A DNA stretch of 22,664 bases from a virus. The stretch covers positions 1 to 22,664 of the IMG/VR virus record IMGVR_UViG_3300031977_002836; one strand, written 5' to 3'. The notes under the pieces are model-generated. The model was not told the DNA's origin. It saw nothing but the letters and a program-made list of their open reading frames with translations, and ran no database searches. A program made the translations under genes and the position numbers. This document shows positions 4,560 through 22,664 of this stretch, piece by piece. Positions within the stretch are counted from its first letter, which is position 1, and every line of letters begins with the position of its first letter.

Positions 4560-4587
4560 TTGGTTTCCAAATCTCGCAACAGTTAAT
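4560..4587 (-). promoter_or_regulatory. Repeated intergenic element, copy 1 (variant core)
   Basis: In the sense of the phage genes it reads ATTAACTGTTGCGAG, then CCAAA at the same offset as the CCAAC box of other copies. The core is the most divergent of the six (GCGAG for GCCGG). It begins 2 bp after the TAG of the upstream gene, and 29 bp separate it from the ATG at 4545. No plus-strand gene adjoins it, so the element exists independently of cargo. A short hairpin, TTTGG-AAA-CCAAA, overlaps the second box. Confidence 0.6.
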
Positions 4588-5511: not shown

Positions 5512-5544
5512 AAAGGCTACGCTGAATTTCCGGCAACAGTTAAT
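5512..5544 (-). promoter_or_regulatory. Repeated intergenic element, copy 2
   Basis: The core CCGGCAACAGTTAAT is perfect at 5530-5544 and lies 31 bp from the ATG at 5498. The second CCAAC box is absent and is replaced by an A+T-rich stretch (TTTAAATTAA in phage sense) where a -10 region could lie, about 17 bp from TTGCCG. On the far side a plus-strand cargo gene begins (5595). Confidence 0.65.
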
Positions 5545-5594
5545 CAGAGGCCAAATCGGTTGACCGCGAATGGGCATTGCCTTTAAGTCGGTGC

Positions 5595-5765
5595 GTGATC
5601 ATAAGAATTGCCGCTGTGTTTGCTGGATTGCTTTTAGTAGGCGTTGGAATAATGCAGTTATTAAAAGGAAAGTTTGAGGGAGAGGCAATTGGCGCCATTC
5701 CTCTTGGTGCTTTGTTTATTTTTTTTGGAATCACTGGGAAAAAAGGTAAACCGCTTGACCGTTAA
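5595..5765 (+). CDS. Small two-helix membrane protein (plus-strand cargo gene)
   Basis: 56 residues from a GTG at 5595 (MIIRIAAVFAG); a TTG at 5577 would add six residues. Residues about 3-22 form one membrane helix and about 30-48 a second, joined by a short charged loop (K-G-K-F-E-G-E), and the protein ends with a basic tail (G-K-K-G-K-P-L-D-R). It reads against all surrounding phage genes and sits between element copy 2 and the end of the gene at 5996, so it looks like an acquired cargo gene. Small membrane proteins in such positions often mediate superinfection exclusion; that role is a guess here. The start codon is uncertain because no clear Shine-Dalgarno is visible. Confidence 0.6.
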   Translation: MIIRIAAVFAGLLLVGVGIMQLLKGKFEGEAIGAIPLGALFIFFGITGKKGKPLDR

Positions 5766-9851: not shown

Positions 9852-11200
9852 CAGAAAATTCTCCCTGCCGATTGCTGCCTCGCCAGCATTGCACGTTGTA
9901 CCTCTAAGGTTTGCCGCGCCACATCAAGCTGTTGTCTGCCAACCTGAATCAAAGGGTTTGCTCGTTTAGCAAACGCACCAACACCTTGGCTTGCGGTTTG
10001 AGTCATTGCGCGTGGGCTGCCTGTTCCTGCTGCTGCGGCTGTTTGGATACCTTGCATCTGTTGAAACAAATCAAAGTCCTGCCCCATCAGCTCAAATCGT
10101 TCTTTGCCGGTCTTGGCTTTCCGAATCTTCTCAAACAACGCCAACCGCTGCGCAAACAGTGCATTGAGTTGCTGCTCTTTTGACATCTGCTTGAAAGCAG
10201 CGTCGTTGATTTTCTTTTGCAGTGCCTCTTGGGCTTTTCTTGCTTCGATCTCGTCGTTAATTCCTTTTGATGAACGAGTAGAAGGCGAAGATTTTCCGCT
10301 CCTTCTTTTCTCAATTGCCTTCTCTCGCTTTTCAACCTCTTCAACAACACCTAAATATTCACGGCCAACTGCCCTAACCGAATCAAGCACAGCCCTAAAA
10401 AACCCACGACCCGATTCAAGGGTTCCGACAAAGGTTCCAGCAGCAGCCATTATCTTTGTAAACGGATTAATGAATTTTAATCCATCTGAAAGATAAGTGA
10501 ACACTTGGCCAAGAATCATAACAATGTCGCCCCAGAAAGCGCGAAGGCGCATGGATGCAATCTGCATCTCAACCATTTGATCGGCCACGTCTTGGATGTT
10601 TCCTCCATCCATGATGATGCCAAGGTCTTCTGCCTCCTTGCGCATCTCCTCCAAACCCTTCTTTCCCATCATCAATGCGGGAGCGAGTTTGCGGCCAAGG
10701 TCATCTCCGAGGTTCCGCACGATGGCTGTCAGCGCACGGTTTTTGTCCGAAGTATTGGAAACAGCATCAGCAAACAGCTCAAACAGTTGCTGTGGGTTTT
10801 TGCCGCGAAGTTGATCAACGGTGATGCCAACCAAACGGAAGTCCTCAATCATTGACTCCGTTCCAGCTAAGGCGTCCTCAGTGCGGTCGGCAAGGGTCGC
10901 AAAGGCATCACTGGTATCACTCAGCTCCAAGCCAAAACGCGCAAAAACGTACTCCCACTTTTGGAGTTCGTCTGTGGTCATTCCAAGCGCAGGAGCCAAT
11001 TCTGAAACCTCCTTGGCAAACTCACCAACCTCCTTTGCCTTACTTGCAATAAAGCCGACAGAAAGCGCACCAGCAACCGCACCCTTCAGGCTGCCGACGA
11101 TGTTGGCCTGCGTCTTCTTGGCAGTCGTCTGCGCCTTCTTCATGCCTGCCTCATAGGCGCGGCCATCAAAAGACAATATTGCTTTGAGATTAGCTGCCAT
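9851..11200 (-). CDS. Tail tape measure protein (short)
   Basis: 449 residues. The N-terminus (A-I-L-S-F-D-G-R-A-Y-E-A-G-M-K-K-A-Q) is typical of tape measure proteins, followed by a Q/T/K-rich helical start and a glycine/alanine hydrophobic patch (G-A-V-A-G-A-L-S-V-G-F-I-A). Most of the rest is long helix. A membrane-like stretch lies around residues 225-260 (W-G-D-I-V-M-I-L-G-Q-V-F). The C-terminal half is strongly charged coiled coil with Q-rich repeats. At about 1.5 angstroms per residue, a known tape measure relation, it would set a tail near 65-70 nm. Its start overlaps the chaperone stop as TGATG. Confidence 0.85.
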   Translation of the reverse strand: MAANLKAILSFDGRAYEAGMKKAQTTAKKTQANIVGSLKGAVAGALSVGFIASKAKEVGEFAKEVSELAPALGMTTDELQKWEYVFARFGLELSDTSDAFATLADRTEDALAGTESMIEDFRLVGITVDQLRGKNPQQLFELFADAVSNTSDKNRALTAIVRNLGDDLGRKLAPALMMGKKGLEEMRKEAEDLGIIMDGGNIQDVADQMVEMQIASMRLRAFWGDIVMILGQVFTYLSDGLKFINPFTKIMAAAGTFVGTLESGRGFFRAVLDSVRAVGREYLGVVEEVEKREKAIEKRRSGKSSPSTRSSKGINDEIEARKAQEALQKKINDAAFKQMSKEQQLNALFAQRLALFEKIRKAKTGKERFELMGQDFDLFQQMQGIQTAAAAGTGSPRAMTQTASQGVGAFAKRANPLIQVGRQQLDVARQTLEVQRAMLARQQSAGRIF

Positions 11201-11796
11201 CAGTTGTTCATTATCTTTGCTGGATCAAACGCACCTTCTTCGATTTGGCGCTCCAACTCTTTGACCTGTTCCTGAAGGCGTGCGTCCTCCTCTGAATAGA
11301 TACGCAGCGAACCGTCCATCTCTGCGGCTGTTGCCATGTCCCAAAGCGACAAAGAAAAAGCTCGGTTCAGAACTTCAGACTCACTGAAACCCAGCTTCGA
11401 CATCAACGCACACTTGATGACTTGTTCCGGTGGTGCACCAAGCGATTTGCCTTTGTTCTCTTTCTGCCAAAGCTTTGGCCCGTCCAGCCCCTCGTTGATG
11501 TAGTCGTTGAACCACTCGCAACGTGCCTGAACGTCGCCGCACACGCGCAGTGCCTTGTCTAGTTTCTTGGCCTCTTGCTTGAAGCGACCAGACTCAACCA
11601 ACTCAAGTGCATCCTCGTAGGTGCGCGAACAGATGAGAACGGACAAAACCAAATCGGCCTCTGTTGGGATACCACCCACGACAAAAGCCGATCCGTATCT
11701 TTTCAATAAGATGAGATGTCCTAGCGAGAGAGGCCGAAGCTTAACTCCTAGAATCTGCCAACCGTCAGGGACGGCAGCTTGGTAATAATCCAGCAC
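11200..11796 (-). CDS. Tail assembly chaperone
   Basis: 198 residues from a GTG at 11796. It lies between tail tube and tape measure, the invariant site of tail assembly chaperones. The protein is mostly helical with a C-terminal charged coiled coil (A-R-L-Q-E-Q-V-K-E-L-E-R-Q-I-E-E-G), and the N-terminus has G-V-K-L-R-P-L-S-L-G-H-L. In many siphoviruses a -1 frameshift makes a longer form; here the gene abuts the tape measure with a 1-bp overlap, leaves no room for a second open frame, and shows no obvious slippery heptamer near its end. The role is assigned from order rather than from a motif. Confidence 0.7.
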   Translation of the reverse strand: MLDYYQAAVPDGWQILGVKLRPLSLGHLILLKRYGSAFVVGGIPTEADLVLSVLICSRTYEDALELVESGRFKQEAKKLDKALRVCGDVQARCEWFNDYINEGLDGPKLWQKENKGKSLGAPPEQVIKCALMSKLGFSESEVLNRAFSLSLWDMATAAEMDGSLRIYSEEDARLQEQVKELERQIEEGAFDPAKIMNN

Positions 11797-11802
11797 GCAA
11801 GA

Positions 11803-12195
11803 TTAGCTCGAGATGTTGGTGGCAATGTACTGGGTCAGCTCAAACGTGTAGCGGGTTTCTCCGTCCACTGAACTTTCCTGACTTCCACCAATCAAAGTGT
11901 ATTTACCCGAGTGCGCACCGATCATGTCAGCCTTACCGGTTCCACCGACTGTCACCATTGCCCCAAGAGCCGGAAATGCAGCCCGAGCCGTTGGAATGAC
12001 CTCAATCGTGAGATCGGCTTTTGCGTTGTGCAGTATCAGCGTTTGGCACTCACCGTCGTCGCCCATGATTTCCTTTTGAGCCGACGAAACTGAGCGACTG
12101 AACGATTGCTCAATGCCACTGCCAACAATTCCCGTGCCCGATGCAGTTATGCCATCGACCGACCAGATTACCGTTGTTCCTTTCTGAACAGACAT
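11803..12195 (-). CDS. Major tail tube protein
   Basis: 130 residues, beta-rich, starting M-S-V-Q-K-G-T-T-V-I-W-S-V-D-G-I. It contains G-T-G-I-V-G-S-G-I-E-Q-S-F-S-R and a central I-E-V-I-P-T-A strand, a size and pattern matching tail tube subunits of the lambda gpV / HK97 fold. It is followed by the chaperone and tape measure, as expected. Tail tube protein is needed in many copies, and this gene has its own copy of the repeated element 33 bp before its ATG, consistent with a dedicated promoter. No Shine-Dalgarno is visible (CCTTTGAAATG). Confidence 0.75.
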   Translation of the reverse strand: MSVQKGTTVIWSVDGITASGTGIVGSGIEQSFSRSVSSAQKEIMGDDGECQTLILHNAKADLTIEVIPTARAAFPALGAMVTVGGTGKADMIGAHSGKYTLIGGSQESSVDGETRYTFELTQYIATNISS

Positions 12196-12214
12196 TTCAA
12201 AGGTTCAGTTTAGG

Positions 12215-12242
12215 TTGGTTCGGAAAGTCGGCAACAGTTAAT
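12215..12242 (-). promoter_or_regulatory. Repeated intergenic element, copy 3
   Basis: The core is TCGGCAACAGTTAAT (one change from consensus) at 12228-12242, with the CCAAC box at the standard offset and TAAACT 16 bp from TTGCCG in phage sense. It stands 33 bp before the tail tube start at 12195. The zinc-ribbon cargo gene begins on its other side. Confidence 0.65.
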
Positions 12243-12275
12243 CGGCATTGATTTTGGGTTGAAGCAGTGGGTGGA

Positions 12276-12728
12276 ATGTTTATTTTTCCCGAAATGGAAA
12301 TCGAGTGCCCAAGCTGTAAAGAGCAGATTTTGATTCCAGACGACGAATTGACAGAGGTTTTTGAGTGTCCTTTTTGTCTGCAAACAATCGAGCTTGAGCA
12401 ACAGAAGGAGGATGAAGTTCTTCCTCCAAAAATTGATTCCAAAGAAAAACCGAAGGCAAGTCATGAGCCGCCGCCTGCTTCAGCACCGCTGCCAAGTGCT
12501 GAAAGCATTATGAACGACTTTCGAGGGCCGCTGCTTATGCCGTGCCCAGCCTGCGGGAAAAGCGTCAGTAAGAAGGCTGACATTTGCGCTGGTTGTGGCC
12601 ATCCAATTTACAGCGGATTCCTAGGCACAGCCGGAACGCGCAGGGCATTGAATATTATCTTTCTGGCAGCAATAATATTTCTTCTGTTCGGTTGCCTTTT
12701 TAGTCCAAATTTCGTGTCACGTCTTTAG
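12276..12728 (+). CDS. Double zinc-ribbon membrane protein (plus-strand cargo gene)
   Basis: 150 residues from the ATG at 12276; GTG 12267 and ATG 12294 are alternatives. The first zinc ribbon is C-P-S-C ... C-P-F-C near residues 10-36. A proline-rich linker follows (P-P-P-A-S-A-P-L-P-S-A), then a second ribbon, C-P-A-C-G-K ... C-A-G-C-G near residues 90-112, and one C-terminal membrane helix (I-I-F-L-A-A-I-I-F-L-L-F-G-C-L-F). Such membrane-anchored zinc ribbons are frequent in Verrucomicrobiota and Planctomycetota but their function is unknown. It lies on the opposite strand to the phage genes, and its last 12 bp overlap the 3' end of the convergent gene at 12717. Confidence 0.75.
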   Translation: MFIFPEMEIECPSCKEQILIPDDELTEVFECPFCLQTIELEQQKEDEVLPPKIDSKEKPKASHEPPPASAPLPSAESIMNDFRGPLLMPCPACGKSVSKKADICAGCGHPIYSGFLGTAGTRRALNIIFLAAIIFLLFGCLFSPNFVSRL

Positions 12729-13574
12729 TTTAGATTTTCGAGCAGCAGCTTCAATTGCCTGTTGCGTGCGCTTTCTGAGGTTATCCGTTTGGCTTTTAAT
12801 TGCCTTTTGCATAATGCGATTGCGTGCACCGTGTTTCTGCATATAGCTGATCTCGTTGCTCACCATCACTGACGGGAAGATCGGATGATCAACTGAAACC
12901 CGCACCCTGCCTCCACGAGTGCCGTGGCCCTTTATCCACTTTGGCCTTGGTGTTTTAAGTGCGGTCGCAGCTTTGTTCCAACCGCCTTTGCCTTTGCCGA
13001 TGCGCTTCTTCAGATACTTCATGTAGGCATTGAACCGCTGCTTCGTGATGAACATCTTGTCGAGAAACACATGACGACCAATCTGCAAATCTTCTCGTCC
13101 AGCTTGTGAGACACGGCCACGAGAGTTTCGGTACTTGTTGTGGTGCGCCTTCATCGTGCTGATGCTGGCGTCGGGTTGGTAGAGATTGTGTTCAACGCCA
13201 AACACGCGCCCGTCCTTCGTTGCCCAGATTGCGTGCTGCATTCCTGCCATGTCCTTGCCGAGTGTTTCCTGCCACTTCTCGGCCTTCTTGAACGTGGACA
13301 TCTTGCGAACTCGAAACACACCGCCCTTCCCATTTTTGCCAAGCAGATCACCAACGATTGCGTTCTCGCCGATCTTCTTTTGCTTCGCCCATTGTATTTT
13401 TCCCTTCTCGTCTGCGAACGCCGTGCGCTGGTCGTTCGGCGGTGTCAGCGACATCGCATCCCGCACCACCAACTTGCCAACCTGCTTCAGCACCGAGCCG
13501 GTCTTCTTGCGCGAAGCAGTGCGAAAGTCGTTTATGGCTTTTAGAAATTCCTTGGTTTCAATGTCGATCTTCAT
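12717..13574 (-). CDS. Basic connector / tail-completion protein, possibly HK97 gp10-like
   Basis: 285 residues and strongly basic (many K and R), starting M-K-I-D-I-E-T-K-E-F-L-K-A-I-N-D-F. The helical N-terminus with K-x-V-x-x-A-x-x-x-T-P-P resembles neck or tail-completion proteins of the HK97 gp10 type, but the protein is about twice their usual length. The extra central and C-terminal part is rich in basic G-K-G-K-G-G-W and R-G-G-R-V-R-V segments. It lies between the tail terminator candidate and the tail tube, where such a protein belongs. Cargo genes on the opposite strand flank it on both sides (12276-12728 and 13590-13817). Confidence 0.6.
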   Translation of the reverse strand: MKIDIETKEFLKAINDFRTASRKKTGSVLKQVGKLVVRDAMSLTPPNDQRTAFADEKGKIQWAKQKKIGENAIVGDLLGKNGKGGVFRVRKMSTFKKAEKWQETLGKDMAGMQHAIWATKDGRVFGVEHNLYQPDASISTMKAHHNKYRNSRGRVSQAGREDLQIGRHVFLDKMFITKQRFNAYMKYLKKRIGKGKGGWNKAATALKTPRPKWIKGHGTRGGRVRVSVDHPIFPSVMVSNEISYMQKHGARNRIMQKAIKSQTDNLRKRTQQAIEAAARKSKLKT

Positions 13575-13589
13575 AAAGTCTGCTTTGCA

Positions 13590-13817
13590 ATGTTGGCTTT
13601 AGGATTAGGCATAAAAGTGTGGCACATTGTCGCGCTAGTTGTTTGGTTTATCTTTTGCTGCTATATAATTTGGAATGAGTACGAAAATGAGGGTGAAGAT
13701 TTTTTACCAGCAGCAGGCTCAGGCTGCGGTGCTTTTTTCTTCGCGCCTCCTTTGCTTTATGGTTTTTGGTTATTAATCAAATGGGTAATAGGTCTGCTGC
13801 AATTTGAGGTTTTTTAA
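13590..13817 (+). CDS. Small two-helix membrane protein (plus-strand cargo gene)
   Basis: 75 residues from the ATG at 13590. The first helix covers about residues 9-28 (H-I-V-A-L-V-V-W-F-I-F-C-C-Y-I-I-W). An acidic loop follows (N-E-Y-E-N-E-G-E-D-F), then a glycine-rich stretch and a second hydrophobic region (about residues 47-72: F-F-F-A-P-P-L-L-Y-G-F-W-L-L-I-K-W). The DNA is visibly more A+T-rich than the phage genes on either side, suggesting transfer. Unlike most of the other cargo genes it has no copy of the repeated intergenic element beside it. It fills the space between two phage genes almost completely (15 bp on each side). Function unknown. Confidence 0.65.
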   Translation: MLALGLGIKVWHIVALVVWFIFCCYIIWNEYENEGEDFLPAAGSGCGAFFFAPPLLYGFWLLIKWVIGLLQFEVF

Positions 13818-13832
13818 TATTTAGTTTGGCCT

Positions 13833-14279
13833 CTATTCACTACCGTAGCAGTAGACATCAAACGTGATCTCACCAATGAAGTAGCCATCCTCAACGCGCT
13901 GCGCGAAGGCAAAGTTCTGCGCGGCAATTGCGGTGACTGTTTCAGTTGAGTCTGCGTTGATGTTCGTCACGAGGTTCGTGTTCATGAACAAATCCCGCAC
14001 CTCAGCAACTCGACCACGATGCGTTGCCAGCGTGTTGGTTTCTGCCTGCGAGTAGATCGCGACCGTCGTTGAACACAACCAGTTGCCTGTTCCACTCGGA
14101 CTTTCCTCTGCGCTTTCCACGAGCGCGAAAATCAAATCCTCAGTGACATCGGCCGTGCTCAGTCCGGTGTGAAGCGGCACGTTCGCAATGTTGCTTCCTG
14201 TTGTCGCAGCCTGAGTGGTCAGCAGGTTTTCCAAGACCGCTTCAAGCTTCCCATCAACGTCGTTGTAAAAGGTTGGCAT
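13833..14279 (-). CDS. Tail terminator / tail completion protein candidate
   Basis: 148 residues. A helical start (N-D-V-D-G-K-L-E-A-V-L-E-N-L-L) leads into a beta region with C-S-T-T-V-A-I-Y-S and a C-terminal G-Y-F-I-G-E-I-T-F-D-V-Y-C-Y. Length and alpha-then-beta layout fit tail terminators (gpU-like), which join tail tube and head connector. Position after the head-closure candidate and before the tail tube agrees. Its start overlaps the stop of the preceding gene by 1 bp. The family assignment rests on context. Confidence 0.6.
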   Translation of the reverse strand: MPTFYNDVDGKLEAVLENLLTTQAATTGSNIANVPLHTGLSTADVTEDLIFALVESAEESPSGTGNWLCSTTVAIYSQAETNTLATHRGRVAEVRDLFMNTNLVTNINADSTETVTAIAAQNFAFAQRVEDGYFIGEITFDVYCYGSE

Positions 14280-14611
14280 TACTGCGTGAGGCTTTTGACG
14301 GTCAGCCGCAACGCTGCACCATCGGGTTGTTCAACTGAATCAATACGAAACACCGTTCCGTTCAGCGTTACGTCAAAGCACGTTGTCAGCGTGATCTTCT
14401 GACCGGCAACTGGCAGCGAACTGAAGTCGCCAACCTTGAGTTCAAAGATCGCGTCGAACTCAGGAAAGAAACCTCCTTCGTCCAAATTCCGATTCTTTGT
14501 GAGTGAACTCATCGTGCCTGAATAGGCAGTGCCCGAGTGAGTGAACGTGCACGGGAAATCGTCAAAGACGTGACCGAGGTCGCTTGCGAGTTGTTCTTCT
14601 ATTGTTGCCAT
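14279..14611 (-). CDS. Head closure / head-tail joining protein candidate
   Basis: 110 residues from the ATG at 14611 (M-A-T-I-E-E-Q-L-A); a longer frame would start inside the terminator hairpin. The protein is beta-rich in its second half (F-E-L-K-V-G-D-F-S-S-L-P-V-A-G-Q-K-I-T-L, then G-T-V-F-R-I-D-S-V), as in the small beta-barrel stopper proteins (lambda gpFII type). It is the first gene after the capsid gene, where these proteins are encoded. The ATG lies 6 bp after the U-tract of the capsid terminator, so it is expressed by read-through or from a very close promoter. Confidence 0.6.
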   Translation of the reverse strand: MATIEEQLASDLGHVFDDFPCTFTHSGTAYSGTMSSLTKNRNLDEGGFFPEFDAIFELKVGDFSSLPVAGQKITLTTCFDVTLNGTVFRIDSVEQPDGAALRLTVKSLTQ

Positions 14612-14617
14612 TGTTCC

Positions 14618-14656
14618 AAAAAAAAGAGGGACGGCGGCTTTCAAGACCGCCGCCCC
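14618..14656 (-). terminator. Intrinsic terminator after the major capsid gene
   Basis: In minus-strand sense a 10-bp G+C-rich stem (GGGGCGGCGG pairing with CCGCCGTCCC, one G-U wobble) with a 9-base loop is followed by TC and eight T residues. It lies 24 bp after the capsid stop. This is a textbook factor-independent terminator and probably lowers transcription of the tail genes relative to the capsid gene. Confidence 0.9.
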
Positions 14657-14680
14657 ATCATGGCGTCACACTACTATGAA

Positions 14681-16510
14681 TTAGGCGTTGTATTTAAGAT
14701 CGGTGATCTTAGCAAACGACTCAGGATGGCGAACAGCGATGTCCGTGAATATGGAAGTGACCAATCGCACCTGACGCTTGTGTGCCAGAGTGTAAGGATC
14801 AACCACCACGTCTATCCCTGCCCAATTACCAATCAGCAAGTCGCTGAAGTTACCGAAAACCATTGTCGTGGTTGCGGTAGCACCAGAACCAGCAGAAGCC
14901 ATTTGGTTGCTCATGTAGAACGGATAGCCATTGACCTGACCGTTCGACAAAACGAACTGTGCAGTGTTGCTGGCGATCTCTGTCCTCTTGAGCTTCTGGG
15001 CTGCGTTGGCGTTGCCGACGTAACAGAGCGAACCGGTCAAGGCGTTGTCCGTTGCGACCTGCTCCTCCAACTTGACCATCAGAGTGTATGCTCCGTCGGT
15101 TCCAGCAGAGACACTGCCGATGCCGGATGTGTTAACGATTCCGGTCGGCTGGTTTGAACTGCCAGAACCAGAAACAGCAGCAAGGTCTTGCGCAATGGCA
15201 ATCACCTGAGCCAAGTCGTTTCTGACGAACTGCTCAATGCTGATGCTGCTTTGTGCCAGCAACTGCTTTGAGTATTCCGTCATCGCGCTCAACTGCTTCG
15301 GAACCATTGTCACCTGATCAAACGCTTGGTCTGAACTGGAGAGAGTTGGAACTTCAGCAGTCCAAGATGCAGTCGCTGCACCGGTCTGCCTTGGAATCGC
15401 AACATCACCGACAAGGCCGTCGAGCTGTGTTGCGCCGGTCTGCGCAATTACAGAAGCATTACGCAAAATGTCAATAAAACTTGATCCAAGAAGATCAGTA
15501 GCCACTGTGTGCCCGCCTGCTGTGGCAGTGCCATCAACCAAGCCACGAGTGCTGTGATTGAGCACATCGGTCGGAATGACGAGGCCATCAACATTGCTGC
15601 GACCGTACTTCTTCTTGGCTGCCTCACTGACTTCGTTTTCAAAGTCGGAGAACTTGCCGCTGTTGCAGTACGAGTTCACAGCACGAACCAGAGAGAAGCT
15701 TTCGCGCTCTTTCTCGTTCAAGCCAATGTCACCATCATCCTGACGAACCTCAGTTGGTTCCTCGGTTTTCAAGTTGTTCTCAAGTATCCACCGGCTGAAT
15801 TGGCCAGCGTCCTTGCCGTCTTCGATCGCCTTTTGGGCGGCGTCGATGCAGTTGTACTTCGCGCCAAGCGCGACCAGTTCCTTGCTTCGCTTCTGCTCGG
15901 CCTTACGAACCTCAGATTCGTTGACCTCAATGCGCGGCGAAGCTTCAACTGTAAGTGTAGAATCTTCGTTCATTTTGGGTTCCTTATCGGATTTGATTTC
16001 AACCACAGGTTCTTGTTCCTCCGATGATTCCGAGCGACCTATGCCTACACTCGGATCGGCTGGGAGTGGAACGATTGAAATTTCCACGGGAACCCAATTC
16101 TTGACGTGAAAGGTAGCCAGCCCTTCGTCATTCCTCTCGGCCCTTTCCATTTCTTCAACGGTGTAACCCACAGAAACCAATCTGCGCACTTGGTCACGCA
16201 CGTCGCCCCAAATCTCTTCTGCGTATGCCGACTTGCCAAACCGCACCACGGCTCGGCCAACTCGGTCTTCATCCACTCGCGCTGATTCAACAACACCTAC
16301 GACTTTGTCAGGGTCATGGTTTACCAATACAGGTGCACCTCCTAAGAGGCGCGATAGATCAACGCTGTCTTGGTCGTGTCTTAAAATTTCGATGCCGAAG
16401 CTTCGTTCGTAGGGTGTCTCAGAACTGAAAGCGAGTTCGACGGTGCGCGACTCTTCGTCAATCGCACGCTTGTCGATGGTTAATTCTCTGAACCGTTTTT
16501 CACCGTTCAT
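14681..16510 (-). CDS. Prohead protease fused to HK97-type major capsid protein
   Basis: 609 residues from the ATG at 16510 (M-N-G-E-K-R-F-R-E-L). Residues 1-155 form an HK97-type prohead protease: V-L-V-N-H-D-P at 61-67 holds the likely catalytic histidine and L-V-S-V-G-Y-T at 111-117 the likely serine, followed by E-I-S-I-V-P-L-P-A-D-P. Residues about 160-290 are charged and helical like a scaffolding delta domain. The rest is a HK97-fold capsid protein (V-I-P-T-D-V-L ... A-I-P-R-Q-T-G ... V-A-I-P and a C-terminal D-P-Y-T-L-A-H-K-R-Q-V-R). Such protease-capsid fusions are known in other phages. The protease would cleave the delta region during maturation. Element copy 4 lies 27 bp upstream, and a terminator follows. 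Confidence 0.9.
   Translation of the reverse strand: MNGEKRFRELTIDKRAIDEESRTVELAFSSETPYERSFGIEILRHDQDSVDLSRLLGGAPVLVNHDPDKVVGVVESARVDEDRVGRAVVRFGKSAYAEEIWGDVRDQVRRLVSVGYTVEEMERAERNDEGLATFHVKNWVPVEISIVPLPADPSVGIGRSESSEEQEPVVEIKSDKEPKMNEDSTLTVEASPRIEVNESEVRKAEQKRSKELVALGAKYNCIDAAQKAIEDGKDAGQFSRWILENNLKTEEPTEVRQDDGDIGLNEKERESFSLVRAVNSYCNSGKFSDFENEVSEAAKKKYGRSNVDGLVIPTDVLNHSTRGLVDGTATAGGHTVATDLLGSSFIDILRNASVIAQTGATQLDGLVGDVAIPRQTGAATASWTAEVPTLSSSDQAFDQVTMVPKQLSAMTEYSKQLLAQSSISIEQFVRNDLAQVIAIAQDLAAVSGSGSSNQPTGIVNTSGIGSVSAGTDGAYTLMVKLEEQVATDNALTGSLCYVGNANAAQKLKRTEIASNTAQFVLSNGQVNGYPFYMSNQMASAGSGATATTTMVFGNFSDLLIGNWAGIDVVVDPYTLAHKRQVRLVTSIFTDIAVRHPESFAKITDLKYNA
15971..15985 (-). promoter_or_regulatory. 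Internal Shine-Dalgarno and start codon inside the protease-capsid fusion
   Basis: At the protease/scaffold boundary AAGGA is followed, after 7 bp, by ATG (codon 180, start of M-N-E-D-S-T-L). Spacing and sequence are ideal, and better than those of most true starts in this window. It would yield a 430-residue scaffold-capsid protein without the protease. Confidence 0.55.
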
Positions 16511-16529
16511 CTTTTTATCATCATGCGAG

Positions 16530-16552
16530 TTGGAAATCCGGCAACAGTTAAT
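16530..16552 (-). promoter_or_regulatory. Repeated intergenic element, copy 4
   Basis: The perfect core CCGGCAACAGTTAAT lies at 16538-16552, 27 bp before the protease-capsid ATG at 16510, and overlaps the TAA of the portal gene. The CCAAC box is present but 5 bp closer than in copies 1, 3, 5 and 6. TGATAA lies 18 bp from TTGCCG. There is no adjacent cargo gene. Confidence 0.65.
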
Positions 16553-17960
16553 TTGTGTCTTCTTCTGGTTTTTCCAAACCCACACTCTCAGCCAATTCCT
16601 CGTCGCGCTTGATGTCGCGCAGCACGTCCTCGATGTCTCCACCGCTTTCAGCAATAACCTGACGGCGTGACTTGAAGTGATTGTCCACTGCCTTGATCTG
16701 CGCATTCACATCCTTCTCGGGATCAACCCAACCCCAGCGTCTCGGTTTCCAATCCGGTGCGTTGAACTTCGCAAGCTTTGACGCTGGCAGATTGATTGTT
16801 CCGTTCAGAATGTTTGTCTCAAGCCATCCGTCAAAGATCGGTTGAACCACAGTGTCTATGAACCAGCGTTGAGTTGCTTTGTAGAACTCGCGCTCATCCA
16901 TCAAGCCTGCGCGAATGGATGAATAGTTCACTGATTCCAAATCCTGCGACAATGTGTGATAGCTGATGCCGAGTCCGGCAGCTATTCCACGCAAACAGCT
17001 TTTGACGAAGCCAGCATAGTTGCCGGTCGGATGATCTGGGTTCCACGATTCAAACCGTGTGCCCATTGGAAGTTCCTCAATGGAACCGGGCGAAATGTCC
17101 ATCAGCGGACTGCCATCTTCATCCATCTCACCAACGTAACCATCAGCGCGATCCTTAACAATGAAGCCCATCTTGCTTGCTGAAATGCGTGCGCTCGTGA
17201 TCTCTGCTTCCTCGTATGCGCCCAGCATTTGCAGGCGCGTCATCGCACTGACCATCCACGGATACCCGCGAGTCTGGGCGATGCGATCGGTGATGAACGG
17301 ATGAATCACCTGCTCTGCCGGTATGCGTTCGCGTGTGGCTTTGACCACGGACAAATCACTCGGGTGACGATCCAGCAGGTGATACGCAACAGGTTTTCCA
17401 TAGCGGTCAAGCTCAACGCCCATCCGCACCTCGTTACCATTCTTCAGCTTCTCGTCGTTAAACCCGAGATCAAGTCGATCGCCTTCAAGCAGTTGAAGCT
17501 GAAAGCCATTGCGATTGCGCAACATCCGAATGATGCAGTCGCCATCGCGTGCGGTTGAACGAAGTGCCAACCGCTGAATATCAAACCAAGTGAACTTGCC
17601 GTTGATGGAACAGTTGGCTGCTTTGCTCCACTCTTTCCACGCTTGTTCAATCAAATCGTTTGCGAGTGCATCCGGTCTGCCACCGTTCTCGGTGACCTTC
17701 ATCTGCAAACCGATACCAGTTGAGCCAAGCACGTTGCTTTCCAAACCGCTGAGAAATCGGCGCACATAGTCGGAATTGCGTTCCAACTCACGACAACGCG
17801 CACGAAGTCTGCCGAGTGAATTGCGAATCTCTTGGTCGGCAGTGGTGATGGGACTGAGCCAATCATTTGTCAGCCGACTCATTGACGCACCAGCGAAGTT
17901 TCGTTTTTGGATTGGTTGAAACCCAAGCCGACTCGCGATGCGGGCGATCAGTTTGTTCAT
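16548..17960 (-). CDS. Portal protein, lambda family
   Basis: 470 residues. The N-terminal pattern D-x-E-I-R-N-S-L-G-R-L-R-A-R-C-R-E-L-E-R-N, then Y-V-R-R-F-L-S-G-L-E-S-N-V-L-G-S-T-G-I-G-L-Q, is diagnostic of lambda gpB-type portals (Phage_portal_2), and L-Q-L-L-E-G-D-R-L-D near residue 157 supports this. The helical C-terminus includes the clip and stem regions and ends in an acidic tail. Portals form the dodecameric DNA gate at one capsid vertex and bind terminase. The start overlaps the gpW-like gene stop as ATGA. The stop codon lies inside element copy 4, so the promoter-like core and the end of the portal share bases. Confidence 0.92.
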   Translation of the reverse strand: MNKLIARIASRLGFQPIQKRNFAGASMSRLTNDWLSPITTADQEIRNSLGRLRARCRELERNSDYVRRFLSGLESNVLGSTGIGLQMKVTENGGRPDALANDLIEQAWKEWSKAANCSINGKFTWFDIQRLALRSTARDGDCIIRMLRNRNGFQLQLLEGDRLDLGFNDEKLKNGNEVRMGVELDRYGKPVAYHLLDRHPSDLSVVKATRERIPAEQVIHPFITDRIAQTRGYPWMVSAMTRLQMLGAYEEAEITSARISASKMGFIVKDRADGYVGEMDEDGSPLMDISPGSIEELPMGTRFESWNPDHPTGNYAGFVKSCLRGIAAGLGISYHTLSQDLESVNYSSIRAGLMDEREFYKATQRWFIDTVVQPIFDGWLETNILNGTINLPASKLAKFNAPDWKPRRWGWVDPEKDVNAQIKAVDNHFKSRRQVIAESGGDIEDVLRDIKRDEELAESVGLEKPEEDTN

Positions 17961-18556
17961 CCTTGGTAAGAGTAGCCAACAGCGTTCACACCTGTCGGCG
18001 CGACAAAGCGAATGCCGATGTTTTTGCCGCTGCGCCTGCCGTTCGCGAGGCGTTCAATTTGAACCTCTCGCTCAACGTCCTGTTTGTATTTCTCGTAGAG
18101 TTCGCGAAGTTCCTTGAGCGGGATTTTGTTAATTGAGCGACCGCCGATTGTGTACGACTCCATCCCATTTGGAATGCGCCCTTCCATTGCGGCCTCGATC
18201 AGATCAAGAACTCGACGTGCGTGGCTTCGTGGGTCGTATGCAGACGAGGAAGCTGGATTGGTAAGAACTTTGAGAATCCCGTCGTAGACGACAAACTTTT
18301 CGCTCCCTTTTGTGACGATGCCGACAATGTCGTAGACATCGGGAGTAAAAAGAGCAGTTACCGTTGCACCGACATTAACCTGAAAAGTGTCTCCGTCTGC
18401 CGTTGAACCAAAACTTGTTTCGGTTGCCCCGTTTCTTCGGAGGTAATAGCTCAGACTCCAATCGCTTGCGGGATAATCAGAAAGAGATTTGCTCCACTTC
18501 CAAGTGACTCCGGCTGTCAGCTTCTCTGGCTCGTAATCTTGAATTTCTGCGGCCAT
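17957..18556 (-). CDS. gpW-like head-tail joining protein with extra N-terminal beta domain
   Basis: 199 residues. The C-terminal half (about residues 108-185) carries R-x-x-H-A-R-R-V-L-D-L-I-E-A-A-M-E-G-R and S-Y-T-I-G-G-R-S-I-N-K-I-P-L-K-E-L-R-E-L, the helical pattern of gpW-type proteins found between terminase and portal. The N-terminal ~100 residues (A-G-V-T-W-K-W-S-K-S-L-S-D-Y-P) look like a beta-sandwich. It is 4-bp coupled to the portal gene. It starts 33 bp after element copy 5, so it likely opens the portal transcription unit. AAAGG lies 4 bp before the ATG and could serve as a ribosome binding site. Confidence 0.7.
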   Translation of the reverse strand: MAAEIQDYEPEKLTAGVTWKWSKSLSDYPASDWSLSYYLRRNGATETSFGSTADGDTFQVNVGATVTALFTPDVYDIVGIVTKGSEKFVVYDGILKVLTNPASSSAYDPRSHARRVLDLIEAAMEGRIPNGMESYTIGGRSINKIPLKELRELYEKYKQDVEREVQIERLANGRRSGKNIGIRFVAPTGVNAVGYSYQG

Positions 18557-18576
18557 TCAACCTTTAGTTTTTAAGG

Positions 18577-18604
18577 TTGGCCGTCTTTTCCGGCAACAGT
18601 TAAT
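18577..18604 (-). promoter_or_regulatory. Repeated intergenic element, copy 5
   Basis: The perfect 15-bp core lies at 18590-18604, followed in phage sense by CGGCCAAC and TAAAAAC. TTGCCG and CGGCCAA can pair around a 7-base loop with one bulge. It stands 33 bp from the ATG at 18556. The surrounding 39 bp are nearly repeated at copy 6 (19055-19092). The plus strand reads TTGGCC, 16 bp, GTTAAT, which could be a weak opposite-facing promoter. Confidence 0.65.
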
Positions 18605-18639
18605 CAGACGCAAAAATCTAACAGGTTAGATTTCATCTG
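18605..18639. promoter_or_regulatory. Palindromic operator candidate upstream of the HTH regulator
   Basis: AAATCTAAC-AG-GTTAGATTT (18614-18633) is a perfect 9-bp inverted repeat with a 2-bp centre. CAGACG and CATCTG flank it as imperfect outer arms. The very small loop and low G+C argue against a terminator. It lies between element copy 5 and the regulator gene, where an autoregulatory site would be expected. Confidence 0.55.
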
Positions 18640-18676
18640 ACTTGAATTGGCATTTTTTTCTAGAGAGTATTTCCGG

Positions 18677-19024
18677 ATGCCAAACCAAAGAAGCAAATAC
18701 AAATCGAAACTCAGCATTTGGATTCCAAGTTTTTTGAAAGAACGCGCCGATAAGCACTGCAAAGAACAAGGGATTTTTATCACTGAGTACATTGCCGCGC
18801 TTATTCAAAACGATTTGATTCTGAATCAAGATACTTTAAGGCAACCAGCGAAAAAGAATCTGATGACAGTAGCTGAAGCCTCGAATTATTTAGACGTTCA
18901 CCCAAACACCATAAGAAATTACGTTAAAGCGAAGATGATTCCGGTTCATAAATTATCAAACAGAATTTATCGCTTTAAAAAAGAAGATTTAGACAGGTTT
19001 CTTTCTGCAAAATTAAAATCTTAA
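18677..19024 (+). CDS. Ribbon-helix-helix plus excisionase-type HTH DNA-binding protein (plus-strand cargo gene)
   Basis: 115 residues from the ATG at 18677 (M-P-N-Q-R-S-K), preceded by AGAGAG at good spacing; a TTG at 18647 would add ten residues. Residues about 10-42 (K-L-S-I-W-I-P-S-F-L-K-E-R-A-D ... I-T-E-Y-I-A-A-L-I) fit a CopG/Arc-type strand-helix-helix. Residues about 61-110 (L-M-T-V-A-E-A-S-N-Y-L-D-V-H-P-N-T-I-R-N-Y ... R-F-K-K-E-D-L-D-R-F-L) fit the MerR/excisionase HTH_17 fold. Two DNA-binding units in one short chain are unusual. A palindrome lies just upstream. The A+T-rich DNA and reversed strand suggest transfer. It could regulate itself, adjacent cargo or the phage elements; there is no direct evidence for which. 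Confidence 0.75.
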   Translation: MPNQRSKYKSKLSIWIPSFLKERADKHCKEQGIFITEYIAALIQNDLILNQDTLRQPAKKNLMTVAEASNYLDVHPNTIRNYVKAKMIPVHKLSNRIYRFKKEDLDRFLSAKLKS

Positions 19025-19056
19025 ACCAACTCCCTCCACCAGTTGAACGCCTTCGG
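19021..19056 (-). pseudogene. Duplicated 3' end of the metallopeptidase gene
   Basis: Minus-strand reading gives P-K-A-F-N-W-W-R-E-L-V-stop, matching the last codons of the intact gene at 19895-19930 (34 of 36 bases identical, one residue change K to N). It has no start and no upstream body. Its TAA overlaps the TAA of the HTH gene as TTAA, just as the intact copy's TAG overlaps the ankyrin gene's stop as CTAA. It is a scar of recombination. Confidence 0.85.
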
Positions 19057-19064
19057 TTTTTAGG

Positions 19065-19092
19065 TTGGCCGCACTTTCCGGCAACAGTTAAT
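19065..19092 (-). promoter_or_regulatory. Repeated intergenic element, copy 6 (orphan)
   Basis: The perfect core lies at 19078-19092 with the CCAAC box and TAAAAAC as in copy 5. In phage sense it is followed by the 36-bp metallopeptidase remnant rather than a gene start, so it appears to be a duplicate of copy 5 left by tandem stacking. The ankyrin gene's ATG lies only 11 bp beyond it on the plus strand. Confidence 0.65.
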
Positions 19093-19103
19093 GTCGCCGC
19101 GAA

Positions 19104-19898
19104 ATGAAGCAGCTACTAATCACAATCGCAGCCGTAGTGCTGGTGGGGTGTTCCGACCCCGAGGCTGAAGCCAACAAGCTTTTCACTGAAGCATCGCGGC
19201 TGGTTAAGGAAGCTGATGCTATTACTGAGCCGAACTCGTGGAAGGCTTTTAACAAGCGCAAAGAAGCACTTGAGTTAATTGAAAAGATAACGCTGCAATA
19301 TCCTCAAAGTTCTCTATCAGTTCAAATATCTCAAGGTGCTTGCCTTATTCAAGGCCAGTTGATTAATCAGGTCAGGGAAAAAATGAAGCCAGAAATGTCA
19401 ATTCAAGATGCTGCCGAAAAAGGAAACATCGAAGTCGTCAAACAGCACTTGGCAGCCGGTACGGATGTGAATGGGAAGGGTGATAAGTTTGAAGCGTCTC
19501 CTTTGCACCTTGCAGCTTGGGAAGGACACACGGAAATCGCCGCACTACTTATCGCCAACGGTGCTGATGTGCACATGCAGAATAGGTTTGGATCGACTCC
19601 TTTGCATTTTGCTGCCGAACAAAACAATAAGGAAATCGTCGCACTACTTATCGCCAACGGTGCGAAAGTGAATACGAGTGACATATACGGATCAATTCCT
19701 TTGCATTCTGCTGTTAAGTGCGGTCACAAGGAAGTCGTCGAACTGTTTATTGCCAAGGCTGCCGATGTGAATTCGAAAATGGATAAAGGCTACACACCTC
19801 TAGATGTGGCCATTGATTATAAGCAAACCGAAATCACTGAACTCCTCCGCAAACACGGCGGCAAGACCAAGAAGGAACTGGAAGCCGCTGGCAACTAA
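19104..19898 (+). CDS. Ankyrin-repeat lipoprotein (plus-strand cargo gene)
   Basis: 264 residues. The N-terminus is a lipoprotein signal: M-K-Q, a hydrophobic stretch, and the lipobox L-V-G-C with Cys16, so it should be lipidated and exported. Residues about 20-95 are helical. From about residue 98 there are four to five ankyrin units of 33 residues (P-L-H-L-A-A-W-E-G-H-T-E-I-A-A-L-L-I-A-N-G and relatives). It ends L-L-R-K-H-G-G-K-T-K-K-E-L-E-A-A-G-N, an ending I associate with Verrucomicrobiota ankyrin lipoproteins. Ankyrins bind proteins, so an envelope binding or exclusion role is plausible. The convergent stop codons with the metallopeptidase gene overlap. No Shine-Dalgarno is visible. 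Confidence 0.85.
   Translation: MKQLLITIAAVVLVGCSDPEAEANKLFTEASRLVKEADAITEPNSWKAFNKRKEALELIEKITLQYPQSSLSVQISQGACLIQGQLINQVREKMKPEMSIQDAAEKGNIEVVKQHLAAGTDVNGKGDKFEASPLHLAAWEGHTEIAALLIANGADVHMQNRFGSTPLHFAAEQNNKEIVALLIANGAKVNTSDIYGSIPLHSAVKCGHKEVVELFIAKAADVNSKMDKGYTPLDVAIDYKQTEITELLRKHGGKTKKELEAAGN
19532..19663 (+). repeat. 99-bp-spaced direct repeat inside the ankyrin gene
   Basis: GGAAATCGCCGCACTACTTA at 19532 and GGAAATCGTCGCACTACTTA at 19631 start 33-base blocks differing at one position and spaced exactly 99 bp (33 codons). The near identity at DNA level indicates recent duplication or gene conversion of one ankyrin unit. Confidence 0.85.
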
Positions 19899-19930
19899 AC
19901 CAACTCCCTCCACCACTTGAACGCCTTCGG
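19895..19930. repeat. 36-bp direct repeat bounding the ankyrin insert (partner at 19021-19056)
   Basis: The two copies differ at two of 36 positions and are 874 bp apart. One is the true 3' end of the metallopeptidase gene, the other the truncated copy. Together with elements 5 and 6 they define two tandem junctions of the form element, cargo gene, metallopeptidase end. Confidence 0.85.
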
Positions 19931-20296
19931 GTTGTCGTTCCACACTGTGCAGATGCCCGTGGCCAATCTGCGCACGAAGCTTTCCTCTTTGTCTTTCTCC
20001 TTCAGATCAAACGCTGCTGTCAGCGCGTGCATGACCTCGTGCAAAAACGTGTCCTGCATCGCGTCGTTGTGCTGATCTTCACAGATCGCAATGATCTGCA
20101 ATTCCGGTGAACAGAACCCAACTGCGCCGCTTGCCATCATCTGTTCCTGCGGTGAGAACATAACTTTGTAGCTCAGGTTCAGAATCTTGAGTTCGTCAGG
20201 TCTTCCAACTTGTTGCGAAGTTTTGGTTCCTTGAGCGGCGGTTGTGGATCGCTTTGTACGGGTCGGCTTTTGGCGGGGCTTGGGGTTTGTTTTCAT
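19895..20296 (-). CDS. Small HExxH zinc metallopeptidase
   Basis: 133 residues from the ATG at 20296 (M-K-T-N-P-K-P-R), preferred to an ATG at 20344 because that would extend further into terminase. The basic first 30 residues overlap the terminase gene by 101 bp. The conserved part begins after that (E-L-K-I-L-N-L-S-Y-K-V). F-L-H-E-V-M-H-A-L at 84-92 is a zincin motif: His86 and His90 are metal ligands, Glu87 the catalytic base, and an E-E pair at 104-105 may supply the third ligand. I recognise this as a family of small phage metallopeptidases found in late regions. Substrate unknown. Its stop overlaps the ankyrin gene's stop. Confidence 0.75.
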   Translation of the reverse strand: MKTNPKPRQKPTRTKRSTTAAQGTKTSQQVGRPDELKILNLSYKVMFSPQEQMMASGAVGFCSPELQIIAICEDQHNDAMQDTFLHEVMHALTAAFDLKEKDKEESFVRRLATGICTVWNDNPKAFKWWRELV

Positions 20297-22106
20297 CGAC
20301 GCTCTTAGCCTTGAGCGACTTCGCCAGTTGGTCAAGATTTGCATTCAGGTTCACAAACGCAGCAAGCGCATACACCCGCACGTCCAAAGCTTCGTTGCGT
20401 GCGCGGATCTTCTGCCACGTTCTCGTCTTCATCCCATTCTTGATCCGCACCACTGCCTTCTCAGCGGTTAACTGCTCGAAGTATTCGTCGTCGTATCCGT
20501 TCCCGATTGGGAAGTGGCAATAGCCCGCACCTGCTTCCTCAATCTTCAAGCGCGAGTAAATCAGCTCCTTGGCTGAGTCCACACCGATGCTGAACAGAGC
20601 GACCTTGGCTGAGTTGCTGCGGTTCGGCCGACTCACAATCGGTCGGTTCGCTCCAGCAACACCTTTGATGGCGAAAATGCGATTCACCTCTCGCGGCTTG
20701 CAGAAGTCGTACACGATCTTGGACTGATAGCCTGTGTCGATCATCGCTGATGCTATGCGAAGCTGAACACCACTCTCGTGCTTCCAGCTTCGACCGAGGA
20801 ACTCCTCAAGCTGTGACCAAGTGGCAGGATTGGTGATCGCCCCGTAAATTGTTTTGTACTCGATCCCCCAACACTCTTCGCCAAGACCAACGGCCATCAC
20901 CTCGACCTCGATCCGATCATCCTGACAGTCACAACCTGCAACCAGAACCACTGCGTCCTGCGGAACGGTTTCTGCATACGGCTCACAACGCGCAAGCAAC
21001 GGACTCGCGTGCACTGTCTCGCCCTGCTCTTCCCAAGTGTCGGCGAGGAACGTGTTCGTCCACGCCTTGATTGACTCTGTGCCGCGATGCTTTGCATCCA
21101 GAAACTGAGCGACTGCTTGATGAAGTCTGGTCTTGAATCCTTTGCGCGGTGGAAACAATGAGCACAACCCGTTCAGGTGATACCCGCGCTTCCCGTTGAA
21201 CGGTGCGGTCGGCCGCCATTCACCTTGCCGCACCATCTCCTCTCGCTGCTTGTCGGTGATCTTCTTCTGGCACTTGGTGCAAACGATGTGCGCCGTTTCC
21301 GGCAGATGCTTTCCTTCCTCGTCCTTGTCCCAAGTGACCTGCGCCCATTCAAGCGTCTGGTGTTCTCCGCAGTGTGGGCACGGACAAAACCAGCGTCGTT
21401 GATCGGTCAGATCAAACTCAGCCTCAACACGACTCACACCCTTGATCGTTGGCGTTGATGTGGTGACGTGAACTGAGTTGAAAAATGTGTCGCTTCGTTT
21501 CTGGGCCAAGCTGATCGGGTCACCTTCCGCACCTGCGCTGTTTGGATAGCGATCCACCTCATCACACAGCACCACCCGAATCGGTCGAGACGCCAAGCTT
21601 GCCGGACTGTTTGCACCCGCAACGGTGATGTGCCCGCCGTTGAATCGTTTGTGCAGCACTGTGTTGCCGGAGTCCCGAGCACGAGAGTCGGCGACCAAGT
21701 CAGTCAGAATCGTTGTATCCCGCACCATTGGCGCAAGCCGATCCTTCGACCACGTCTCTGCCATGTCCAATGTCGGTTGCAACACCAGCATCGGACTTGG
21801 TTCCTCGCTGATGAAAAACCCGACGATATTGTTCAAAATTTCGGTTTTCCCAAGCTGACTCGCCCACTGCAAAACCACTGACTGAACCTCGGGATCGTTC
21901 ACCGCTTCCATCGGCTCGGCTTGATAAGGCGCAGACTCAAGACGGAACCGACCTGTGAACGCGCTGCCTTCCGGTGAGAGTCGGCGATGTCGAACTGCCC
22001 ACTCTGAAACGGTCAACCTTTCGGGCGGTCTGAACGCTTCAAAGCTGCGCTCGATCAGACCGTCGATGGCTTCACTGTGGTCGAAACTTGTGTTCTCTAA
22101 GTTCAT
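20196..22106 (-). CDS. Terminase large subunit, GpA family
   Basis: 636 residues from the ATG at 22106 (M-N-L-E-N-T-S-F); an ATG at 22139 would add 11 residues. GGGCGA precedes the chosen start. The ATPase has Q-W-A-S-Q-L-G-K-T-E (Walker A region, GKTE near 86-89) and V-V-L-C-D-E-V-D-R-Y-P (Walker B, near 179-189). A zinc-binding insert, C-P-C-P-H-C-G ... C-T-K-C, lies near 235-285, as in lambda gpA. The C-terminal nuclease includes V-A-G-C-D-C-Q-D-D-R-I-E-V-E and A-M-I-D-T-G-Y, with likely metal-binding aspartates. It packages DNA into the procapsid by ATP hydrolysis and cuts the concatemer. It overlaps the small subunit by 35 bp. Confidence 0.95.
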   Translation of the reverse strand: MNLENTSFDHSEAIDGLIERSFEAFRPPERLTVSEWAVRHRRLSPEGSAFTGRFRLESAPYQAEPMEAVNDPEVQSVVLQWASQLGKTEILNNIVGFFISEEPSPMLVLQPTLDMAETWSKDRLAPMVRDTTILTDLVADSRARDSGNTVLHKRFNGGHITVAGANSPASLASRPIRVVLCDEVDRYPNSAGAEGDPISLAQKRSDTFFNSVHVTTSTPTIKGVSRVEAEFDLTDQRRWFCPCPHCGEHQTLEWAQVTWDKDEEGKHLPETAHIVCTKCQKKITDKQREEMVRQGEWRPTAPFNGKRGYHLNGLCSLFPPRKGFKTRLHQAVAQFLDAKHRGTESIKAWTNTFLADTWEEQGETVHASPLLARCEPYAETVPQDAVVLVAGCDCQDDRIEVEVMAVGLGEECWGIEYKTIYGAITNPATWSQLEEFLGRSWKHESGVQLRIASAMIDTGYQSKIVYDFCKPREVNRIFAIKGVAGANRPIVSRPNRSNSAKVALFSIGVDSAKELIYSRLKIEEAGAGYCHFPIGNGYDDEYFEQLTAEKAVVRIKNGMKTRTWQKIRARNEALDVRVYALAAFVNLNANLDQLAKSLKAKSVDENKPQAPPKADPYKAIHNRRSRNQNFATSWKT

Positions 22107-22632
22107 GAAGTTCGCCCAGCACCTTGTCCTTCTCGTCATCGTTGAGTGCTGAGTTCATGATGACTTTGCGAATCTCGATAGCTTTCTGCGTGAACAGTTT
22201 CTCAACCACCGCAACGGGAATGAGTTCGCTGATCAGCGTTTGATACTTTGCCTTCAGAATCAGCGTCTCAAAGTGCCGCTTCTTCTCGGCAAGACTCGCA
22301 CCATCAATGCCGTCGCCAAAATCCTTGAGGTCGTTGCGCTTGGCAAAGTCACGCCAGCCTTGGAGATCGTAGCCGCCATCAACCTTATCGTTCGGTGCTC
22401 CGGCCATCTTCATCCAGCGATAGAGGCAGTCGCGTGAAATGCCGAGTGCCTTCGCCAACATCGTCTTGGTCGTGATCTTGTTGTCGTCCTTGACCTCGGG
22501 CTGCTGCTGCATGAAGTGCTCTCTCTCGCTTGAGGTCAGGGTCTTACCGGCCGCGACCTTCTTGGCGATGTTCTCCAAGTCCTTGTTCAAGACTGCCTCG
22601 ACCTCGGGCTGAACGTCATCGTTGATTTTCAC
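22072..22632 (-). CDS. Terminase small subunit (Nu1-like, HTH)
   Basis: 186 residues from a GTG at 22632. Residues about 57-80 (M-L-A-K-A-L-G-I-S-R-D-C-L-Y-R-W-M-K) form a helix-turn-helix followed by G-Y-D-L-Q-G-W-R-D-F, as in DNA-recognition domains of Nu1-type small terminases. The C-terminal half is long charged helix (A-E-K-K-R-H-F-E-T-L-I-L-K-A-K-Y), suited to oligomerisation and large-subunit contact. It would recognise the packaging site. It lies directly upstream of and overlaps the large subunit. No complete copy of the repeated element precedes it in the 32 bp available. Confidence 0.8.
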   Translation of the reverse strand: MKINDDVQPEVEAVLNKDLENIAKKVAAGKTLTSSEREHFMQQQPEVKDDNKITTKTMLAKALGISRDCLYRWMKMAGAPNDKVDGGYDLQGWRDFAKRNDLKDFGDGIDGASLAEKKRHFETLILKAKYQTLISELIPVAVVEKLFTQKAIEIRKVIMNSALNDDEKDKVLGELHELREHKFRPQ

Positions 22633-22664
22633 TGAATCTAAAAATTTGCGGCAGCCGACTGATC

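Follow-up and report, generated by a model that had tools for sequence, protein, structure and literature searches.

How phages gain morons has been called mysterious (PMC4378225); in lambdoid and other temperate phages these are single genes that lie between adjacent phage genes, differ from them in base composition and are absent from relatives (PMC4378225, PMC3029335). Phages are also known to acquire DNA from defective prophages (PMC3945230), and such prophages, like the grounded prophages (PMC6379469), contain truncated phage genes beside retained cargo and are possible donors. In addition, short conserved sequences at gene edges have been proposed as boundary sequences that provide potential homology for mosaic exchange (PMC3029335), and in Cluster K mycobacteriophages the start-associated sequences, a short repeated motif in one orientation, are found upstream of many genes (PMC3203893). 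Integron cassette arrays, in turn, combine variable genes with a conserved linker between them.

The locus described here resembles each of these systems and differs from each. The window (the whole stretch of 22,664 bases that was analysed, classed as a virus record) is from a marine phage of a Verrucomicrobiales-associated family, with a late operon on its minus strand that comprises terminase, metallopeptidase-like, head-tail joining, portal and capsid-protease genes, and with a slot that separates the metallopeptidase gene from the head-tail joining gene and holds two unrelated extra genes, hereafter cargo (Table 1). Similar to morons, the cargo genes deviate in GC content (0.35 for the HTH gene and 0.47 for the ankyrin gene versus 0.51-0.56 for the neighbours), and cargo in this family lies between genes that are adjacent in relatives, as seen from the portal-capsid site in the window and L007 versus L008, and from L165 and L273. 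However, the window cargo is stacked in tandem with scars of the flanking genes in between, and the linkers are found again in host chromosomes, where they accompany other cargo. Likewise, in contrast to grounded prophages, the remnants here frequently amount to very small pieces of gene end (33-130 nt) that form repeated inter-cargo linkers, and, unlike the proposed boundary sequences, the gene edges are also duplicated within the slot and thereby record exchange. While the Cluster K sequences are located 3-7 nt from the start of non-structural genes, the repeated element found here lies ~27-33 nt upstream of structural genes and has no Shine-Dalgarno core. Finally, unlike in integron arrays, the linker is derived from phage genes, and neither an integron integrase over the cut-off nor a folding signal was detected. 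No such arrays are described, by title or abstract, in the open-licence literature on Verrucomicrobia, ankyrin and prophage.

Table 1. Features of the window, and linkers of the window type at four bacterial loci.
Feature	Position or locus	Strand	Remarks
Element without cargo	4573..4587	-	pattern match
Element, then plus-strand cargo 5577-5765	5530..5544	-	position
Element upstream of putative major tail protein, then plus-strand cargo 12267-12728	12228..12242	-	tail role from gene order
Element between portal and capsid, overlapping portal stop	16538..16552	-	empty site in window
Head-tail joining (gpW-side) gene	17957..18556	-	phrog_5774 E 2e-39; its leader is one junction side
Leader and element copy 5	18557..18604	-	element 18590-18604; upstream of head-tail gene
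Palindrome AAATCTAAC-AG-GTTAGATTT	18614..18633		perfect 9+9, arms 2 nt apart; upstream of HTH gene
Cargo 1, small HTH_17/MerR-like DNA-binding protein	18647..19024	+	PF12728 E 5e-13
E', 35-nt copy of metallopeptidase gene end, outside that gene	19022..19056	-	sequence comparison
Leader and element copy 6	19057..19092	-	leader 19057-19077, element 19078-19092; joined to E' at 19056/19057
Cargo 2, ankyrin-repeat protein	19104..19898	+	PF00023/PF12796
Metallopeptidase-like late gene	19895..20344	-	phrog_1233 E 6e-19, phrog_87; last 36 nt are E
Linker between ankyrin and phosphodiesterase-like lipoprotein	L115, Verrucomicrobiales MAG contig		product names from sequence
Linker between unknown and 34-aa product	L153, 318-kb chromosomal contig		product names from sequence
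Linker between ankyrin end and cupredoxin-like product	L154		product names from sequence
Linker between ankyrin and zinc ribbon	L040, MAG called Pirellulales		product names from sequence

The order given in the first-pass annotation (element, HTH gene, E', leader and element, ankyrin gene, metallopeptidase end) was found in the sequence as claimed. E' matches the true metallopeptidase end E, which occupies 19895-19930 within that gene, at 36 of 38 positions over the whole repeat and at 32 of 33 from AACC to CGG, and a repeat pair of this type was produced by 0 of 100 shuffles. The claimed similarity of the flanks of copies 5 and 6 (85% over 41 nt) and the like overlap of both cargo stop codons (TTAA and CTAA, each before ACCAACTCCC) were also recovered, and the tandem is included in a second contig, IMGVR_UViG_3300032086_004382 (L006), which corresponds to window positions 10551-22664 at 99.93% identity over 12,114 bp.

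The linker between the two cargo genes is 68 nt long, and 66 of its 68 positions are matched by 33 nt of metallopeptidase end followed by 35 nt that comprise the head-tail leader and the element when the leader of L039 and other E sites are used for comparison. Read base by base, it is the end of the metallopeptidase gene fused out of register to the leader of the head-tail gene, the product that out-of-register recombination between two slot copies is expected to yield. The leader and element of copy 6 (30 nt) are identical in L039, L037 and L030 and differ from the resident copy 5 at 3 nt, which makes it likely that the linker stems from two parents. An even fuller junction is present at L259, where ~128 nt of metallopeptidase are fused to ~85 nt from the start of the head-tail gene, leader and element, followed by cargo; a junction of this form is to be expected from unequal recombination of one slot with another. 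Shorter linkers may represent separate events or trimmed versions.

The 15-nt element (ATTAACTGTTGCCGG on the minus strand) has seven matches in the window at up to three mismatches versus 0.5 expected, and lies upstream of late-gene start codons on the minus strand, namely those of the head-tail gene, the capsid gene, the putative major tail protein gene (which precedes the tail chaperone and tape measure genes) and two downstream genes. It had been taken for a mark of cargo sites; since copies are also present at sites without cargo (Table 1), this reading was abandoned. The portal-capsid site, empty in both the window and L007, is occupied in L008 by an opposite-strand zinc-ribbon gene, bordered by the portal stop on one side and by the element on the other. 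Together with the leader position and the empty sites, this placement suggests that the element belongs to the late-gene leader and that cargo probably enters just before it. Judged by its position, the element would serve the phage as a late promoter or leader, so that cargo placed before it would not disturb any late gene. The element is almost intact in phage copies of the closest relatives, while it is mutated in many chromosomal copies. Matches to the element pattern in L028, L029 and L031, which share neither a protein nor any other DNA with the window, are probably due to chance, and 18-mer matches in genomes at L036, L038 and L041-L046 look like chance as well.

In bacterial chromosomes, linkers of the same or a similar kind separate other cargo genes, and several of these linkers are close to truncated genes that belong to the phage family. 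A pattern search of 320 Verrucomicrobiales genomes, probably mostly metagenome bins, returned 67 E-like sites in 20 genomes and none with the reversed pattern as a control, although these counts vary with the number of mismatches allowed and at least one site, in G492, looks like chance; a weak match in G195 (L122) was discarded because the raw sequence contains no array, and G001 (called Pirellulales) may contain misbinned contigs. Among 74 E-like sites that were examined (two in the window and 72 chromosomal), 37 run into the element, 8 lead to the start of a signal peptide, and in 7 the metallopeptidase sequence extends as far as the HExxH region. The spacing from E to the element falls into three classes, 45-47 nt (26 sites), 55-59 nt (5 sites, window included) and 81-83 nt (6 sites), which together with L259, the longest junction, give four discrete breakpoints. 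The fixed spacings could, however, reflect the copying of a few founder linkers instead of repeated unequal events. The bacteria that carry similar scars are the probable hosts of the phage family.

Several bacterial loci, including L164, L250, L251, L253, L037 and L039, retain remnants of phage genes, and some E-like sites lie beside truncated phage genes. A portal pseudogene with cargo is present in L164, whereas L251 combines a terminase end (87 aa), metallopeptidase, E and ankyrin and adjoins a gene resembling aroC. In L253 a 43-aa metallopeptidase remnant lies beside three cargo genes separated by E, and L037 contains pieces of window positions 13435-13920 and 18542-18604 in phage order with cargo between them, while in L039 117 aa from the start of the head-tail gene lie beside a cys gene cluster. 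Such remnants beside cargo would be explained if prophages lose phage genes while cargo stays.

Taken together, these data lead us to favour, with a probability of about 0.7, the interpretation that multi-cargo arrays are built in phages by unequal junctions, that prophages decay to cargo and scars, and that cargo is exchanged around persistent linkers. Cargo genes in the slot are encoded opposite to the late genes, in the space from the metallopeptidase stop codon to the leader element that precedes the following late gene, and multi-cargo slots would arise in phages via rare unequal junctions where homology is slight or absent. With a linker in place, short repeats, that is E, leader and element, the ankyrin 3' end and the signal-peptide start, would allow homologous recombination among phages, prophages and decayed prophages to replace cargo or insert more of it, and host-borne prophages would lose their phage genes while keeping cargo with gene-end scars. 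A broader version is held more tentatively and at somewhat less than even odds, namely that phages and decayed Verrucomicrobiales prophages form one cargo pool kept as (cargo-linker)n arrays, in which fused gene-end linkers act as portable homology and host-derived cargo is shuttled and restacked without a dedicated recombinase. The scar is thus a record of the way in which phages pile up and exchange additional genes. The junctions can be resolved to the base, fall at four discrete breakpoints and are found again at dozens of chromosomal sites next to different cargo, so that a comparison of each linker with the genes around it can serve to test models of how arrays grow, are exchanged and decay.

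An alternative, which we regard as unlikely, places the chromosome first: linkers would originate from host deletions and prophage stacking, and the phage would later have taken an HTH-linker-ankyrin piece from a decayed array. Nearly all linkers found are indeed chromosomal, the E' linker being found among phages only in the window phage and the near-identical contig, and recombination of phages with defective prophages has a precedent in E. coli (PMC3945230). However, the window E' has 1 change and its element 0, whereas most chromosomal linkers have drifted, and the HTH gene was not found in 24 of 25 genomes with such arrays, the remaining one giving a weak match at 32% identity.

The proposal of the first-pass annotation, that two phages carrying different cargo were joined by unequal crossover, agrees with the out-of-register fusion, the second leader allele and the fuller junction in L259. 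In its narrow form, in which two single-cargo phages recombined once and recently and no wider array system exists, it is improbable even though the junction anatomy and the two leader alleles fit, since four bacterial loci (L040, L115, L153 and L154; Table 1) have a breakpoint of the same type between other pairs of cargo genes, and the junction in the window is therefore not private; similar junctions are found at 33 more loci, and 32 other fusions of E with the element belong to the two other spacing classes. Regarding the single-cargo relatives to be expected from a crossover, an ankyrin-only chromosomal relic was identified (L250, with the head-tail start, element, a single ankyrin cargo, E and metallopeptidase end), but no HTH-only relative was found. 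A sister phage (L008 and L262, which overlap by 91 of 91 identical bases) carries two other cargo genes between its head-tail gene and metallopeptidase, encoding a 111-aa lipoprotein and a 261-aa ankyrin protein, and their joint is not E' but a scar of ankyrin end and signal-peptide start. Comparable cargo was present in the slot of none of the more distant relatives (L273, L165 and others): the terminase and head-tail genes are ~26 bp apart in L165, and in L273 only chance-size ORFs, and no sizeable opposite-strand cargo, lie between them. An E remnant free of cargo, which had been named as evidence against the proposal, was seen at none of the loci read in detail, which are a part of the 74 E sites.

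It is highly improbable that the linker is an integrase-cut recombination site and each cargo gene a mobile, integron-like cassette. Although a conserved linker between unrelated genes, fixed spacings and sharp edges would fit such a system, the integron integrase model TIGR02249 was over its cut-off in 0 of 20 array genomes, five linker sequences folded no better than shuffles (z -0.36 to 1.85), a phage gene end and leader account for the linkers almost base by base, and the linker edges coincide with the stop codon and the element; the hypothesis was rejected. An assembly artefact from repeats of co-occurring phages is hardly credible, for although the window is a metagenome contig with short repeats and similar phages are present in the same samples, agreement with the second contig extends over 12.1 kb, the repeats have diverged from one another and are short, and the linker type recurs elsewhere.

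With respect to the cargo itself, the HTH gene may start with ATG at 18677 (18677-19024) or TTG at 18647, and the palindrome upstream of it is a possible candidate operator for self-regulation. The ankyrin protein has a predicted lipoprotein-type start (MKQLLITIAAVVLVGC). Searches of viral contigs with the ankyrin and HTH proteins, and with the exact signal-peptide DNA pattern, matched only the near-identical contig, and no close donor was found for either gene, the best ankyrin match being 52%. Morons are characterised by a promoter and terminator of their own and by expression from the repressed prophage; consensus promoter and terminator scans for the cargo here gave results no better than shuffles.

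A distant phage (L030:10780-11090, also L035), whose terminase is 23% identical, has 58 bp in common with the window at 93% identity, covering the leader, the element and the first cargo codons and followed by a different 84-aa cargo; the shared stretch indicates transfer between unrelated phages. A further cargo site without the element lies between two late genes (window 13590-13817, L007:4466-4738), where the small plus-strand genes differ between the window and L007. An apparently intact distant relative (L165, G559:C19) in a Verrucomicrobiales genome has a possible integrase gene. The ankyrin gene 3' end (CTCCGCAAACACGGCGGCAAGACGGG...; L153, L118, L037, L008) is a recurrent scar or gene end that precedes E or the next cargo start, and was found at 36 of the 72 chromosomal E sites. 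At L115:272-1126 the cargo signal-peptide start (MKQLLIIIAAVVL) is fused in frame to another lipoprotein-like gene, as if a new gene had taken over a 5' cassette common to cargo. Finally, at L115:1160-1501, L156 and L157 a metallopeptidase remnant is followed by a conserved stretch of ~150 bp or more with GGTGCC repeats and then by tRNA-Leu (TAG or CAA); this arrangement beside E is possibly the integration end of a prophage or island.
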